Below, in pieces: positions 26,872 to 31,426 of a DNA stretch of 31,463 bases. The notes under the pieces were generated by a model that saw only the letters and a program-made list of their open reading frames with translations, searched no databases and was not told the origin of the DNA. The first letter of the stretch is position 1; each line of letters starts with the position of its first letter. This stretch comes from Candidatus Eiseniibacteriota bacterium (GTDB lineage: Bacteria; Arandabacterota; Arandabacteria; JAGLYR01): contig JAGLYR010000195.1 in NCBI GenBank assembly GCA_023132135.1, positions 1 through 31,463 of the forward strand, in the 5' to 3' direction. The position numbers and the translations under genes are program-made.

Positions 26872-26934
26872 CAGACATAGACAAATGGTGCCGGTGACCA
26901 GCACAACACAATCAGATATGGACAGATGGTGCCG
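26872..26934 (+). repeat. 22-bp direct repeat, two copies
   Basis: The copies at 26872-26893 and 26913-26934 match at 19 of 22 positions and share ATGGTGCCG at their ends. They lie 41 bp apart, start to start, in a non-coding stretch of about 290 bp (26772-27059) in which I find no gene. Confidence 0.65.
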
Positions 26935-27059: not shown

Positions 27060-27127
27060 TGCCAACGCGAACATCACCAGTGGGTGGGCCGGTCCGGCCC
27101 GCACATCTGGTGAATGTAGTGTTACGC
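27060..27127 (-). other. degenerate attC-like site closing the cassette array
   Basis: Core-like boxes TGCCAAC (27060-27066) and GTTACGC (27121-27127) flank an imperfect palindrome. TCACCAG and CTGGTGA are equidistant (7 bp) from the boxes, and the centre GGGCCGG/CGGCCC is a near-perfect hairpin. Spacing and shape match attC sites, but the boxes deviate from the GCATAAC/GTTATGC pairs seen elsewhere in the array. It lies 58 bp after the helicase stop. Confidence 0.5.
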
Positions 27128-27185: not shown

Positions 27186-28214
27186 TCAATTCGCGTGAGA
27201 TGTCATGAGACGCTCTGGGATGAGATATACACTATTCCAAGCACGTGTGCAGGCAACATAGAGCTTATTCCGTGTCTGAGGCTTCAGTTCGTGCCCCTTT
27301 CCCTTCTCCAGCTTCCGCAAGGTTGCGGTATTCAATGCAACCGCAATGTCTTGGTAATCATCACCTTTCGATGCCCCCCAGTTGCAGGATCGACAGCGAT
27401 ACTTCTGATGTGATTGGTAGAATAACTTGACCACTTCATTAGCGTCCTGAATTCGAGTGGCCTCTTCTTGACAGGTGACCCATCGGATGTCCGTGGCATT
27501 TTTCCGATGCGAGGTCATGACAATGCCGAGGTTGTCCTTGACGAAGGAACACAGCGTCGGACTGCATCGATAACTCCGCTCGAGAGTCTGTTTGTCCACG
27601 CTGAAGCCAATGCGCTCAAGGCGCGTGACAAACGCGTCAAGACTCTGGTGGAGGTTCTTGTTCACATTGCCATCCCTGCTAGTGTCGTACGTGTGTTGAA
27701 AGAAGTCACCTACCAGACACATGTCGACATGGCTGCTCGCTAGCTGCGAGAGAAGATTGAAGTCATGCCCAGCGAAATCCTGGACCTCGTCAATCAGCAG
27801 CGCGTCGAAGTACTTCTCAATTCGTGCTTGCACCTGGCCCAATACGTTTTCCATCTCGAGTAACTTCGCCAACCGATTGTGGTATACTCTCCGCTTCTCG
27901 TCGAAGTAGTATAGTCTGTTATCTCTCCGCTTCGTACGAGTCCACTGTGGGGGCATCCCCCATCTCATACCCCGTGGTCTGGTGTCCCTCCATAGAAACG
28001 GTCTGAAGCAGAATGAGTAGAGAAAGGTGAAGTAGGAGCTCAGCGTGACATGCTTTGGGAAGACCCCAAACTCCTTGATGATCTTGCGACGCAGGTTCGC
28101 GAGGTTGTTCTCCGTATACGTAATGACGAGAGAGGGCCTGCCATCACGGAGCCTGCGCACGATGCTGGTGGTCTTGCCTGACCCAGCGACAGCGAGAATT
28201 ACTCTCTTATCCAT
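27186..28214 (-). CDS. compact UvrD-like SF1 helicase (GajB-like)
   Basis: 342 aa. SF1A helicase motifs are all recognisable: Walker A AVAGSGKTT (8-16), motif Ia TYTENNLANL, motif II LLIDEVQDF (139-147), motif III LVGDFFQHTY, motif IV LERSYRC (211-217), a motif V-like GASKGDDYQDI (280-290) and motif VI LYVACTRA (318-325). It is much shorter than Gabija GajB (about 490 aa) or UvrD, so the 1B/2B inserts must be reduced. Its ATG at 28214 overlaps the end of the OLD-nuclease gene by 16 bp, so the pair is translationally coupled. Helicase following an OLD-type ATPase/nuclease is the Gabija arrangement; I infer an anti-phage role. Base composition is visibly lower in GC than the genes left of 26771. 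Confidence 0.85.
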   Translation of the reverse strand: MDKRVILAVAGSGKTTSIVRRLRDGRPSLVITYTENNLANLRRKIIKEFGVFPKHVTLSSYFTFLYSFCFRPFLWRDTRPRGMRWGMPPQWTRTKRRDNRLYYFDEKRRVYHNRLAKLLEMENVLGQVQARIEKYFDALLIDEVQDFAGHDFNLLSQLASSHVDMCLVGDFFQHTYDTSRDGNVNKNLHQSLDAFVTRLERIGFSVDKQTLERSYRCSPTLCSFVKDNLGIVMTSHRKNATDIRWVTCQEEATRIQDANEVVKLFYQSHQKYRCRSCNWGASKGDDYQDIAVALNTATLRKLEKGKGHELKPQTRNKLYVACTRAWNSVYLIPERLMTSHAN

Positions 28215-29764
28215 GCTATGGCATCCGCGAAGTAGCGTGGCGGCTCAAGCTCATCGGCCTTGTGCAGCAGCAGTGCAAAGGCAGCTTCGGCTTTGTTTCC
28301 TAGCATATACTCCTGGACCGTGAGCGTCCGCCTTGACGCAGCGAAAAGCGCATCACAGACTGGCGCATTCTGCGCATAGAGCGAAATCTCAAATGTGCGC
28401 TTTTCGTTATCGCTTTCTGAGAATACCTGTATGTTGGCGCCCGTGTATTCTGCGAATCCTTCGACGCAGTTCTGTTGGTAGTTGCCGTCATTGTCTCGCA
28501 CCACCGCTGTCTTGATATCAAGCAGGACCGCAAGCTCTAGGTATCGTTTGAAACTCGTGCCTCCGACTGAAATGATATGAGTGTTGGAGTCCTCGCTTGC
28601 ATGACCAGTGATCTTTTTGAAGAACGCCTCGGCTAAGATGTATTCAGCATCACCTTCGACCAAGATAACTCGCTGGGAGAGGATGAACTCAAGAACATTG
28701 CTGCTTGGGGCTTTCATAAAGAATAAGGCTGTGTCCTCCGTGAGGTTATCCAACAGAGCCACCGCAGTGTTGTTGCTGTTGAGGAGTAGGCACTTGCGTA
28801 GGTCAAGCCGTGTCGAGATAAGGCTGTTGTGAGTCGCGATCACAAGCTGTTTCTCGGTGCGCTCGCGAATCATCCCAATAAGTCGCTTCATATTGACGTG
28901 GCTGAGGTGATTTTCTGGTTCCTCCATGAGCAGTATGTCGATAGGAGCTGAAGACCGCGATCTATTCAGAGCGAACGCTGTCTTGATGAAGCACTGCTGC
29001 CCGCGACCTTTGTTCTGAATGGCTATTCCCTCTTCTGCAATTGTTAGATCAGACTCGAGTGTGGCTTTTCCGGTAGTGCGGAGGACAAAGTCGTACCTCT
29101 CAACTCTATCGTTGAGCTCTCTAAGCACGTCGGCTTGGAAGCTCTCCTTATGGCGGCGGTATTCGTTACTGTGCTTACTCTTCTCGGTTCCCTGAACATG
29201 AGCGAGGTATAGGTCTTTTATATATTCTCGTGTGGCGTATTCATTGTTGATATGGGCGCTGTCGATGTGAACATGCCGGACTGGCCTGTTGTATGCAGCA
29301 TAGGGCTTTCCGGAGAAGGTATTGAAAGTCACCTCATAGTACTCAAAGGGAAAGGCGGAGGAGTCATCAGCGAGAATCGCGGCGATATCGGCCGAAACCA
29401 GATAGTTCGGCGAGCAGACGAGCTGCACGCCATCACATGCGCGTCCCTCTGAGTTGTTCGTGCCGTTGAGATCGGGGTCGTTCTGCTCGTCGAGGTATAG
29501 TTCAACGGATAGGAGGGGGAGGTCTTCTATTCTCCGATCTGACTCCAAAAACGCTTCAATTGCGGCTGAATTGAATAGGGATTCCAGGCCGAGCGTTTCG
29601 ACCCGCGTTCTACTACCACCAAGGGTCAAATCGACAGCAAGCAGAATCGAGCTTTTGCCTGATTCGTTGTCTCCAATCAGGACGTTCAGATCCGGGCTGA
29701 AACGCGCTTCAAGTGTCTGGAAACGCTTGAAGTTGCATAGCTTGATTTTCTGCAGGACACCCAT
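28199..29764 (-). CDS. OLD-family ATPase/TOPRIM endonuclease (GajA-like)
   Basis: 521 aa. The ABC/SMC-like ATPase comes first: Walker A GDNESGKSS (31-39), a signature-like NKGRGQQCF (251-259), Walker B DILLMEEPENHLS (276-288) and switch His in THNSLIS (H312). The TOPRIM nuclease follows: VEGDAE (E370), RDNDGN (D424, D426), TFE (E459) and GNKAEAA (K491), the set expected of an active OLD nuclease. The length is close to GajA of Gabija (about 580 aa). ATG 29764 has AGGA 4-5 nt upstream and lies about 90 bp after the attC core that opens this cassette. Alternatives are another OLD class-2 pair or a housekeeping DNA-repair OLD; the coupled helicase favours defence. Confidence 0.88.
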   Translation of the reverse strand: MGVLQKIKLCNFKRFQTLEARFSPDLNVLIGDNESGKSSILLAVDLTLGGSRTRVETLGLESLFNSAAIEAFLESDRRIEDLPLLSVELYLDEQNDPDLNGTNNSEGRACDGVQLVCSPNYLVSADIAAILADDSSAFPFEYYEVTFNTFSGKPYAAYNRPVRHVHIDSAHINNEYATREYIKDLYLAHVQGTEKSKHSNEYRRHKESFQADVLRELNDRVERYDFVLRTTGKATLESDLTIAEEGIAIQNKGRGQQCFIKTAFALNRSRSSAPIDILLMEEPENHLSHVNMKRLIGMIRERTEKQLVIATHNSLISTRLDLRKCLLLNSNNTAVALLDNLTEDTALFFMKAPSSNVLEFILSQRVILVEGDAEYILAEAFFKKITGHASEDSNTHIISVGGTSFKRYLELAVLLDIKTAVVRDNDGNYQQNCVEGFAEYTGANIQVFSESDNEKRTFEISLYAQNAPVCDALFAASRRTLTVQEYMLGNKAEAAFALLLHKADELEPPRYFADAIAWIRE

Positions 29765-29854: not shown

Positions 29855-29914
29855 GCATAACGCCCAGCATCAGCGGCGGCGCGAAGCGCCGTTCGCTGCA
29901 TGCTGCTGTTATGC
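29855..29914 (-). other. integron attC recombination site (60 bp)
   Basis: The inverted core boxes GCATAAC (29855-29861) and GTTATGC (29908-29914) are exact mirror copies. Between them an imperfect palindrome folds around GGCGC-GAA-GCGCC. On the minus strand it follows directly after the 173-aa gene and ends GGGCGTTATGC, the usual right end of attC sites. Confidence 0.88.
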
Positions 29915-29936: not shown

Positions 29937-30458
29937 TCAGATATCCACTCGCTTGCCTTCCGCCATTAGGCTGAGCGCTTCCTGCTCTGAGAGCACCTTG
30001 CGTCCGAACAGCTTCGCGAGCAACTGACTCAACGACTCCGTCATACCCGACAACACTGTATGCGCCAAACTCAGGGACCCTTGAATCTCGCGGATTTCGG
30101 CAATCATGGTCTTCCGGCCTTCCACCGAGTGGATAGCGAAGTTGTGCTTCCGAAAGAACTTGTGCGTCAGGTAGTTTCGTTTATCCAGCGCGTCGTTCAC
30201 GGTAGCGATAATGCTGTCATCAATCTGTCCCATTCTTCGGAGCTGCCGAAACAGATTGCCGAAGGTGCATTTGTTTACATCATGAACTAGCGCTCGGAAG
30301 AACTCTCGCTGTTCGTCCGTGATCTTGGACGTGTCAAGGAGCATGGTTGCATAGACCAAAGCGAGGTTTCCGGCTTCCATCTCCATCACCTGTGCCATCT
30401 CAGCAGCTCGTCCGAACTCGTAGTAGAGCTCTCGCAGGTCATCTGGGCAACTGGTCAT
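29937..30458 (-). CDS. HEPN-like helical protein, putative RNase/toxin
   Basis: 173 aa, predicted almost entirely helical; I do not recognise a named family. The stretch LDKRNYLTHKFFRKH (about 91-105) holds R94-N95-x3-H99. This fits the HEPN ribonuclease rule R-x(4-6)-H with a polar residue after Arg. ATG 30458 has GAGG 4 nt upstream and lies only about 20 bp after the preceding cassette core site; the TGA stop lies 22 bp before its own attC. The gene is thus a typical single-gene integron cassette. No nucleotidyltransferase (MNT) antitoxin is adjacent, so it is either self-sufficient or not a classical HEPN/MNT toxin. RNase function is inference from one motif. Confidence 0.7.
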   Translation of the reverse strand: MTSCPDDLRELYYEFGRAAEMAQVMEMEAGNLALVYATMLLDTSKITDEQREFFRALVHDVNKCTFGNLFRQLRRMGQIDDSIIATVNDALDKRNYLTHKFFRKHNFAIHSVEGRKTMIAEIREIQGSLSLAHTVLSGMTESLSQLLAKLFGRKVLSEQEALSLMAEGKRVDI

Positions 30459-30478: not shown

Positions 30479-30577
30479 GCATAACGTTGGTTTCACCTGC
30501 AAAGACGGCTTGGCGCGAGCCGTGCGCCAGCACGGTGCGTGCCAAATGGCTTTGTCAGGTGCAAGCTCTTGTTATGC
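30479..30577 (-). other. integron attC recombination site (99 bp)
   Basis: The core boxes GCATAAC (30479-30485) and GTTATGC (30571-30577) are exact mirror copies and identical to those of the 29855-29914 site. The arms pair as TTTCACCTGC with GTCAGGTGCAAG, with GGCACG-type pairing nearer the centre. The TAA stop of the Abi_C gene lies inside the first box on the minus strand, as is common in tight cassettes. Confidence 0.87.
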
Positions 30578-31402
30578 TTTCTTCTTCTCCAGGTTGTCTA
30601 ACAACAACGCTGACAGCGTCCCAATAAACTCGATCGCTGCCGAGATCTCGCCTTCTTCCAAGTCTGGCAACCAAGGGCGTCCATGTCCGGTCCCCTGCTT
30701 GTTTCGAAGGTTATTCACCGCACAGGCGGTCTCATACATTCCACGTTGCAGCCTTGCCCTTGGATGATCCCCTTGTTGTGGCTTCTGTTCGGGCGTTGCC
30801 ATGTCCAAGGCTACAAAAGCCTGACCCAAAAGAGCAGGAAAATTCGCGGTCGTAGGATATTGCCCCCACACCTCTTGAATAACGTGTGCCGCCACTGCCT
30901 CCATAAGATCCTTACTTGTGCCAACCACAAGGGCGCCGTCCTCGATGCCCTTTTTTGCTCTTTCTACGTAACCACGGAGTGCACTTGTTAGCCGTTTTCC
31001 CGAAAGAGATTCGAGTGCCACCGGTGACACAGATCCGTCCTGGCCAAGGACAACACCAAGTGGCTTGATCGCATCGGAAAGATTTCGAACCGAGTCCGCA
31101 CCGACGAAGTTCGGAGAACTTTCGCGAAACCCTCCACAACTCCTCACAGTTGCAATGAGACCGGTGGCGAAAACTTCTGCTTGCTGAGGGGAATGTTCCA
31201 TCGCCCAGTTAAGAATTATTCGAACACGCTTAGACTTCCCAACTGGCGGTCCCAACTTGTTCGGGTCCGCTCCCTCAAGTTTCGCACGCTTGATCTGAAA
31301 CTCGATATCTGAGTGGCTGGGATCACGCCTTTCGGACTGGGCGTCATCGACCAGTCTCGCCAGGGCGTAGACCACAGTGTCATCAATGGGGATTTTACTC
31401 AT
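30572..31402 (-). CDS. abortive-infection family protein with Abi_C-like C-terminal domain
   Basis: 276 aa from ATG 31402 (MSKIPIDD); GTG 31417 would add five residues. The C-terminal part ACAVNNLRNKQGTGHGRPW (about 226-244), followed by a helix (AAIEFIGTLSALLLDNLE), is the pattern of the Abi_C domain of abortive-infection proteins. It contains R233-N234-x5-H240, which also satisfies the HEPN R-x6-H rule. The amino-terminal 200 residues are helical and not recognised. It is the only gene of its cassette: a GTTATGC core lies about 25 bp upstream of its start, and its attC overlaps its stop. I infer a host-sacrifice defence by RNA cleavage; the trigger is unknown. Confidence 0.78.
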   Translation of the reverse strand: MSKIPIDDTVVYALARLVDDAQSERRDPSHSDIEFQIKRAKLEGADPNKLGPPVGKSKRVRIILNWAMEHSPQQAEVFATGLIATVRSCGGFRESSPNFVGADSVRNLSDAIKPLGVVLGQDGSVSPVALESLSGKRLTSALRGYVERAKKGIEDGALVVGTSKDLMEAVAAHVIQEVWGQYPTTANFPALLGQAFVALDMATPEQKPQQGDHPRARLQRGMYETACAVNNLRNKQGTGHGRPWLPDLEEGEISAAIEFIGTLSALLLDNLEKKKA

Positions 31403-31426
31403 CACCTCACTTGCCACCTTCTCTTA

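Follow-up and report, generated by a model that had tools for sequence, protein, structure and literature searches.

A predicted compact Gabija-like nuclease–helicase pair carried as one integron cassette

Gabija is defined by profile matches and by its gene order, an OLD-type ATPase/TOPRIM gene (gajA) followed by a UvrD-like helicase gene (gajB), and its canonical representative is the system of Bacillus cereus VD045 (8sm3, 8jqb, 8j4t). The GajA protein of this system is a class 2 OLD, a class separated from class 1 OLDs by a helical insert of ~50 residues in the TOPRIM domain (PMC10568477). In the canonical system GajA and GajB assemble into a 4:4 complex, and the system protects against phages. 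Canonical GajB consists of the four subdomains 1A, 1B, 2A and 2B (PMC10822852, PMC10681800), with 2B spanning residues 306-416 of the B. cereus protein (PMC10822852). The 1A and 1B subdomains dock on the ATPase domain of GajA, and a GajB construct comprising residues 224-416 (2A/2B) did not bind GajA (PMC10822852). In one study, purified B. cereus GajB showed neither helicase activity nor DNA binding, and no ATPase activity when in complex with GajA (PMC10681800), which makes it doubtful whether GajB works as a motor even in the canonical system. In P. aeruginosa, Gabija targets DNA ends that are unprotected by RecBCD (PMC12407980). Integrons, for their part, are established as stores of phage-defence genes with streamlining to cassette size (Darracq 2025, Kieffer 2025, Getz 2025, as cited in PMC12409362 and PMC12444791).

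The locus described here lies in Candidatus Eiseniibacteriota bacterium (assembly GCA_023132135.1, contig JAGLYR010000195.1; the window, i.e. the whole stretch of DNA analysed, comprises 31,463 nucleotides) and probably encodes a compact, Gabija-like, DNA-degrading defence against phages that fits into a single integron cassette. A preliminary description made from the sequence had reported two genes in gajA-gajB order that overlap by 16 bp, and the reanalysis confirmed their positions and arrangement, on the minus strand:

28199..29764, minus strand: compact gajA-like gene, 521 aa, ATG start (ORF, Pfam, PADLOC and AF2 model)
28199..28214, minus strand: 16-bp overlap of the gajA end with the gajB start, in the same register in 91/91 compact loci
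27186..28214, minus strand: compact gajB-like gene, 342 aa, ATG start (ORF, PADLOC and AF2 model)

The GajA-like protein is composed of an N-terminal ABC ATPase with a dimerisation insert and a C-terminal TOPRIM nuclease domain (E370, D424, D426), with Pfam matches to OLD-like_TOPRIM (1.6e-18) and AAA_15 (3.3e-18). As had been proposed, it keeps its ATPase and metal-site residues, namely Walker A GDNESGKS, Walker B EEP and the TOPRIM motifs EGD and DND; the three TOPRIM residues named above, together with K37, E282 and H312, are invariant across 69 sequences. The AF2 model (pLDDT 88) aligned over its full length both with B. cereus GajA (Z 18.1, 414 residues) and with its best full-length fold match, the class 1 OLD of Thermus scotoductus (TsOLD, 6p74; Z 21.5, 409 residues). 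Catalytic residues and general fold are common to the compact pair and canonical B. cereus Gabija, but the C-terminal part of GajA differs: only 95 residues follow the DxD motif in the window and 90-98 in compact relatives, compared with 144 in B. cereus GajA (published D434, length 578). Canonical relatives have 142-144 residues there, and the remaining OLDs paired with UvrD-like genes have 136-217. Judged by length rather than by superposition, compact GajA lacks a post-DxD TOPRIM extension of ~47 residues. Because the missing stretch fits the ~50-residue helical insert of class 2 (PMC10568477), we read the protein, by length and model, as a class-1-like TOPRIM in class 2 gene company. The tail of class 1 OLDs, at ~95 residues after the DxD, equals that of compact GajA; class 1 OLDs, however, are single genes, whereas compact GajA is always coupled to a helicase partner.

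The GajB-like protein is a UvrD-like SF1A core of subdomains 1A, 1B and 2A, without a 2B subdomain. Motifs I to VI, already recognised in the preliminary description, are present (I AGSGKT, Ia TYTENN, II DEVQD, III GDFFQ, IV RSYRC, VI VACTRA), motif V taking the form of a V-like SKG, and K14, D142-E143-x-Q145-D146, R216 and R324 are invariant across 70 sequences. The fold of 1A, 1B and 2A and the motifs are shared with the housekeeping helicases UvrD, Rep and PcrA (AF2 model, pLDDT 94, against Rep: Z 22.9, 314/342 residues aligned, rmsd 3.9); unlike these, compact GajB has no 2B, is half the size and lies beside an OLD gene. The model leaves no room for a 2B subdomain, and the spacing between motifs II and VI is 176 residues in the window and 177-179 in sampled compact relatives, as opposed to 316-317 in canonical relatives. 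By length and model, the absent stretch is about the size of 2B plus some linker. Foldseek matched the GajB model to B. cereus GajB (8tk1_F, 3.5e-10; 8sm3_B, 7.4e-8). The B. cereus protein was not among the matches listed for this model by VIA-align, which is no evidence against kinship because Foldseek finds it.

The compact branch is already caught as Gabija by the PADLOC library. When the search with GajA and GajB profiles suggested in the preliminary description was run, PADLOC called both proteins Gabija, the GajA-like protein matching PDLC00102 end to end (4e-109) and the GajB-like protein matching PDLC00148 with residues 1-332 on profile positions 1-352 of 369 (3.2e-54). The same models matched all relatives (GajA, 69/69; GajB, 70/70). 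Besides full-length matches to both proteins and a shared gene order, the PADLOC Gabija models (PDLC00102/PDLC00098, PDLC00148/PDLC00140) also have similar lengths, 532-534 aa for GajA and 365-369 aa for GajB. The earlier statement that the helicase is far shorter than known GajB therefore stands against the B. cereus protein (494 aa) and falls against the PADLOC models of 365 and 369 aa, which it matches end to end. In our sample, the top scorers of PDLC00102 belong to a sister clade (L127, 708 bits, compared with 389 for the compact locus G008 and 364 for the window), in which GajA is ~30% identical (L114/L115).

To place the pair among its relatives, we gathered 80 loci from genomes and 11 from viral contigs, plus plasmids. 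Both the order of the OLD-type and helicase genes and the lengths of their products are conserved: nearly all intact relatives with conserved starts encode a GajA of 519-524 aa and a GajB of 333-353 aa. With the gajB start measured relative to the conserved Walker A motif in 93 related loci, all 91 compact loci, which stem from many phyla and include some near-copies, had an overlap of exactly 16 nt, while the register in the sister group (L114, L115) was 11 nt. This suggests translational coupling of the two genes. A metagenome-assembled Bacteroidales genome carries a natural fusion of GajA and GajB in a single open reading frame of 854 aa (L102:709-3273). The fixed overlap and this fusion together argue for a joint function of GajA and GajB. 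The TOPRIM motifs of the fusion read EGPSE and TDNDS.

In trees of GajA and of GajB, the window falls into a compact clade whose sister comprises the best PADLOC scorers. Unconstrained, both trees put the canonical Gabija rows apart from the compact and sister clades, yet forcing all three together was not rejected by the AU test (p-AU 0.63 for GajA and 0.69 for GajB), and the likelihood under this constraint was even higher than that of the free tree. In a 70-row search, the GajB family was nearer to Rep/PcrA (1.5e-9) than to B. cereus GajB, which was unlisted at E <= 0.001 with 70 rows and reached 0.0011 with 5 rows; the GajA family, likewise, showed no special closeness by sequence to B. 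cereus GajA. From these comparisons, kinship with canonical Gabija is not rejected rather than demonstrated. One might hence ask whether the same two families were paired twice, the compact pair being a separate OLD and helicase defence system, independent of canonical Gabija, that differs in sensing or cutting. We consider this possible but doubtful. It would account for the missing TOPRIM extension and 2B subdomain, and it agrees with the Rep/PcrA-like GajB profile, with the separate clade of compact and sister sequences on the free trees and with the scatter of UvrD-paired OLDs over the OLD tree; opposed to it are the higher likelihood of the unrejected union and the fact that canonical relatives (L124-L126) have the same gene order and also overlapping genes. 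A shade less probable again is the fuller proposal of a second OLD-helicase immunity architecture that evolved apart from canonical Gabija, in which a class-1-like OLD would have an SF1A motor without 2B as its permanent partner, the whole being integron-cassette-sized, spread worldwide on enterobacterial plasmids and unnamed. The preliminary description had offered two options, a Gabija branch that is minimal or distinct, and a separate OLD-helicase system; the profiles, the own clade on both trees and the lost elements support a coherent compact branch of Gabija-like OLD-helicase systems. We favour the compact Gabija-like system.

Both genes share a single cassette of 2,795 bp that extends from the core site at 29855-29861 to that at 27060-27066, in agreement with the roughly 2.8 kb between core sites given before. 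The cassette and its surroundings comprise the following further features:

30572..31417, minus strand: 281-aa protein of a neighbouring cassette, Abi_C (Pfam PF14355, 2.4e-10)
30479..30577, minus strand: attC-like site of 99 nt with core boxes and hairpin fold, terminating the Abi_C cassette
29937..30458, minus strand: 173-aa protein of a neighbouring cassette, without a family match
29855..29914, minus strand: attC-like site 5′ of gajA with core boxes GCATAAC/GTTATGC, terminating the preceding cassette
27060..27127, minus strand: attC-like site 3′ of gajB, the cassette's own attC, with R'' GCGTAAC

The genes lie between these three hairpins with core boxes and in cassette orientation. The array comprises three cassettes or more, reads from right to left and runs off the contig end at 31463. 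All three hairpins folded better than each of 200 dinucleotide shuffles, with z-scores of -6.1 (30479..30577), -5.2 (29855..29914) and -4.6 (27060..27127). Exact 7-nt arms spaced 35-65 nt occur nowhere else in the assembly than at the site 5′ of gajA, and such arms spaced 66-96 nt nowhere else than at the site behind the Abi_C gene. At the cassette ends, R' GTTATGC and the complement of R'' GCGTAAC match at 6/7 positions; the window's cassette lies below a stricter 8-mer R'/R'' screen. The outer box GTTGGCA of the site 3′ of gajB diverges and pairs incompletely, as might be expected if this is the array-end site, whose outer half would be part of the adjoining DNA. The cassette genes have a GC content of 51-53%, compared with 61% for the remaining contig. 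No integron integrase scored above the TIGR02249 cut-off in the 96%-complete host assembly, in which the array reaches the contig end. The four tyrosine recombinases of the host, considered as IntI candidates, turned out to be two XerC/XerD-like and two phage-type proteins instead. The Abi_C (abortive infection C-terminus) gene constitutes a second putative defence gene of the array, and the 173-aa protein contains the sequence RNYLTH, which resembles the Rx4-6H motif of HEPN RNases. Just past the end of the array, a 22-bp direct repeat (86%; 26872-26893 and 26913-26934) separates the last attC-like site from a methyltransferase gene of convergent orientation.

As to how the compact pair might act, the gene overlap would couple translation, so that GajA and GajB are produced together and assemble into a complex. 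In it, GajB would dock on the ATPase head of GajA via 1A and 1B, the parts retained in compact GajB. By analogy with the B. cereus complex, in which 1A and 1B make the contact and the 224-416 construct fails to bind, a 2B-less GajB could still dock. GajB would then bind to, or translocate on, exposed or unprotected DNA ends arising from phage infection, and its ATPase state would free nucleotide-held GajA, whose TOPRIM site would cut the invading DNA. Devoid of 2B, GajB may sense DNA ends or translocate over short distances on ssDNA rather than act as an unwinding helicase regulated by 2B. In Rep, the 2B subdomain is autoinhibitory; a motor that lacks it would perhaps be constitutively ready. 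The anti-phage reading draws support from the mobility on plasmids and cassettes, from defence-rich neighbours and from the Abi_C cassette in the array; a search of the literature found no phage test of the compact branch.

More than 1,600 plasmids, most of them enterobacterial, carry the compact pair, with identities of ~51% (GajA) and ~45% (GajB), and it is also present on chromosomes of many phyla. An E. coli copy was matched over >=80% of its length in 732 of the 5,426 complete genomes of this species, i.e. about one in seven of a set that is probably biased to clinical strains. These E. coli copies are almost confined to plasmids (780/790 places), and the genes flanking the pair outside the enterobacterial records are variable, including type I and type III restriction, pPIWI-RE and reverse transcriptases, so that a housekeeping pair outside mobile contexts can be rejected. 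Among the records listed, RefSeq labels the two proteins only as ATP-dependent nuclease and UvrD helicase. A vapBC module lies directly 5′ of the pair in the inspected E. coli, Klebsiella and Leclercia plasmid records. We found no third conserved gene: vapBC in front of the pair is confined to the inspected enterobacterial plasmid records, and among 117 flanking proteins no Pfam family recurred more than 3 times. The distance from vapBC to gajA is ~75 nt on enterobacterial plasmids of the IncF type and others (L021, L022, L178, L179).

The same distribution bears on the notion that the pair primarily serves DNA repair or element maintenance, such as plasmid or cassette end protection or the exclusion of rival plasmids, rather than anti-phage defence. 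Its mostly plasmid-borne occurrence directly 3′ of vapBC in those records would suit such a module, as would the connection of the OLD and UvrD families to RecBCD-type repair and the plasmid-cost compensatory mutations in a UvrD gene that was later read as Gabija (PMC11637435). We nonetheless regard it as unlikely, given that the pair also occurs in integron cassettes and on chromosomes of many phyla, beside mostly unrelated genes of which several are defence genes. Finally, the idea of a UvrD or GajB that has decayed or been truncated, in a dying cassette, can practically be discarded: although the protein falls 150 aa short of B. cereus GajB and no integrase accompanies the array in the assembly, the conserved GajB length and overlap register rule out decay, the motifs are invariant and the modelled fold is complete and of high confidence. 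A repair helicase truncated by frameshift, which had been named beforehand as a refuting outcome, was rejected on the same grounds, length and start register being conserved in all 91 compact loci. The compact Gabija-like anti-phage system remains our preferred reading.

Beyond the window, at least four loci look like cassettes, with R'/R'' cores matching at both ends of gajAB: Sulfurovum (L027), Nitrincola (L032), Vreelandella (L038) and Labilibacter (L050). As the R'/R'' test yielded only a small excess (4/94 real versus 10/558 mismatched pairs) and the count alone is weak, these four cassette calls rest on inspection. A generic attC hairpin scan of all loci returned 150 real versus 129 shuffled hits and was replaced by the R'/R'' test; the hairpins of the Nitrincola and Sulfurovum loci fold no better than shuffles. 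In the Sulfurovum metagenome-assembled genome, gajAB comes straight after the remnant of an integron integrase with an internal deletion, and the Nitrincola genome encodes a full IntI elsewhere (380 bits). Recurrent carriage of gajAB in cassettes is likely. The compactness of the pair is not due to cassette life alone, since copies on plasmids and chromosomes are just as short. The Sulfurovum integrase remnant (L027:7076-7970) is oriented divergently from the compact gajAB, with an attI-like stretch between the two.

Small, shuffled and size-streamlined defence genes are likewise typical of the integron defence cassettes of Vibrio and mobile integrons, as cited in PMC12409362 and PMC12444791; compared with these, a gajAB cassette of 2.8 kb and two genes is large, as had been noted for this unit. 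Gabija is unmentioned in those two papers, and no such cassette carrying it was apparent from the titles and abstracts of the literature on Gabija with integron cassettes. Likewise, we found no literature on these exact proteins or on the Gabija of pEK499, and no description of the compact branch as a distinct type or architecture. If recurrent cassette carriage is true, a two-gene nuclease-helicase machine joins the defence repertoire shuffled by integrons, and if the pair defends, the plasmid-borne copies in E. coli represent a common phage barrier that has gone largely unread. As a natural GajB that retains its motor motifs and the half that docks on GajA but has no 2B, the compact protein makes the role of GajB testable without engineering.

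On many Klebsiella plasmids (records H80, H82-H90), compact GajA is represented only by fragments, for the most part unannotated, that cover 17-76% of the query, which suggests decay or IS disruption of the gene on these plasmids. Two Listeria phage records without annotation (OR846759.1 and OR848108.1) encode a full-length GajA relative of 30.9% identity.
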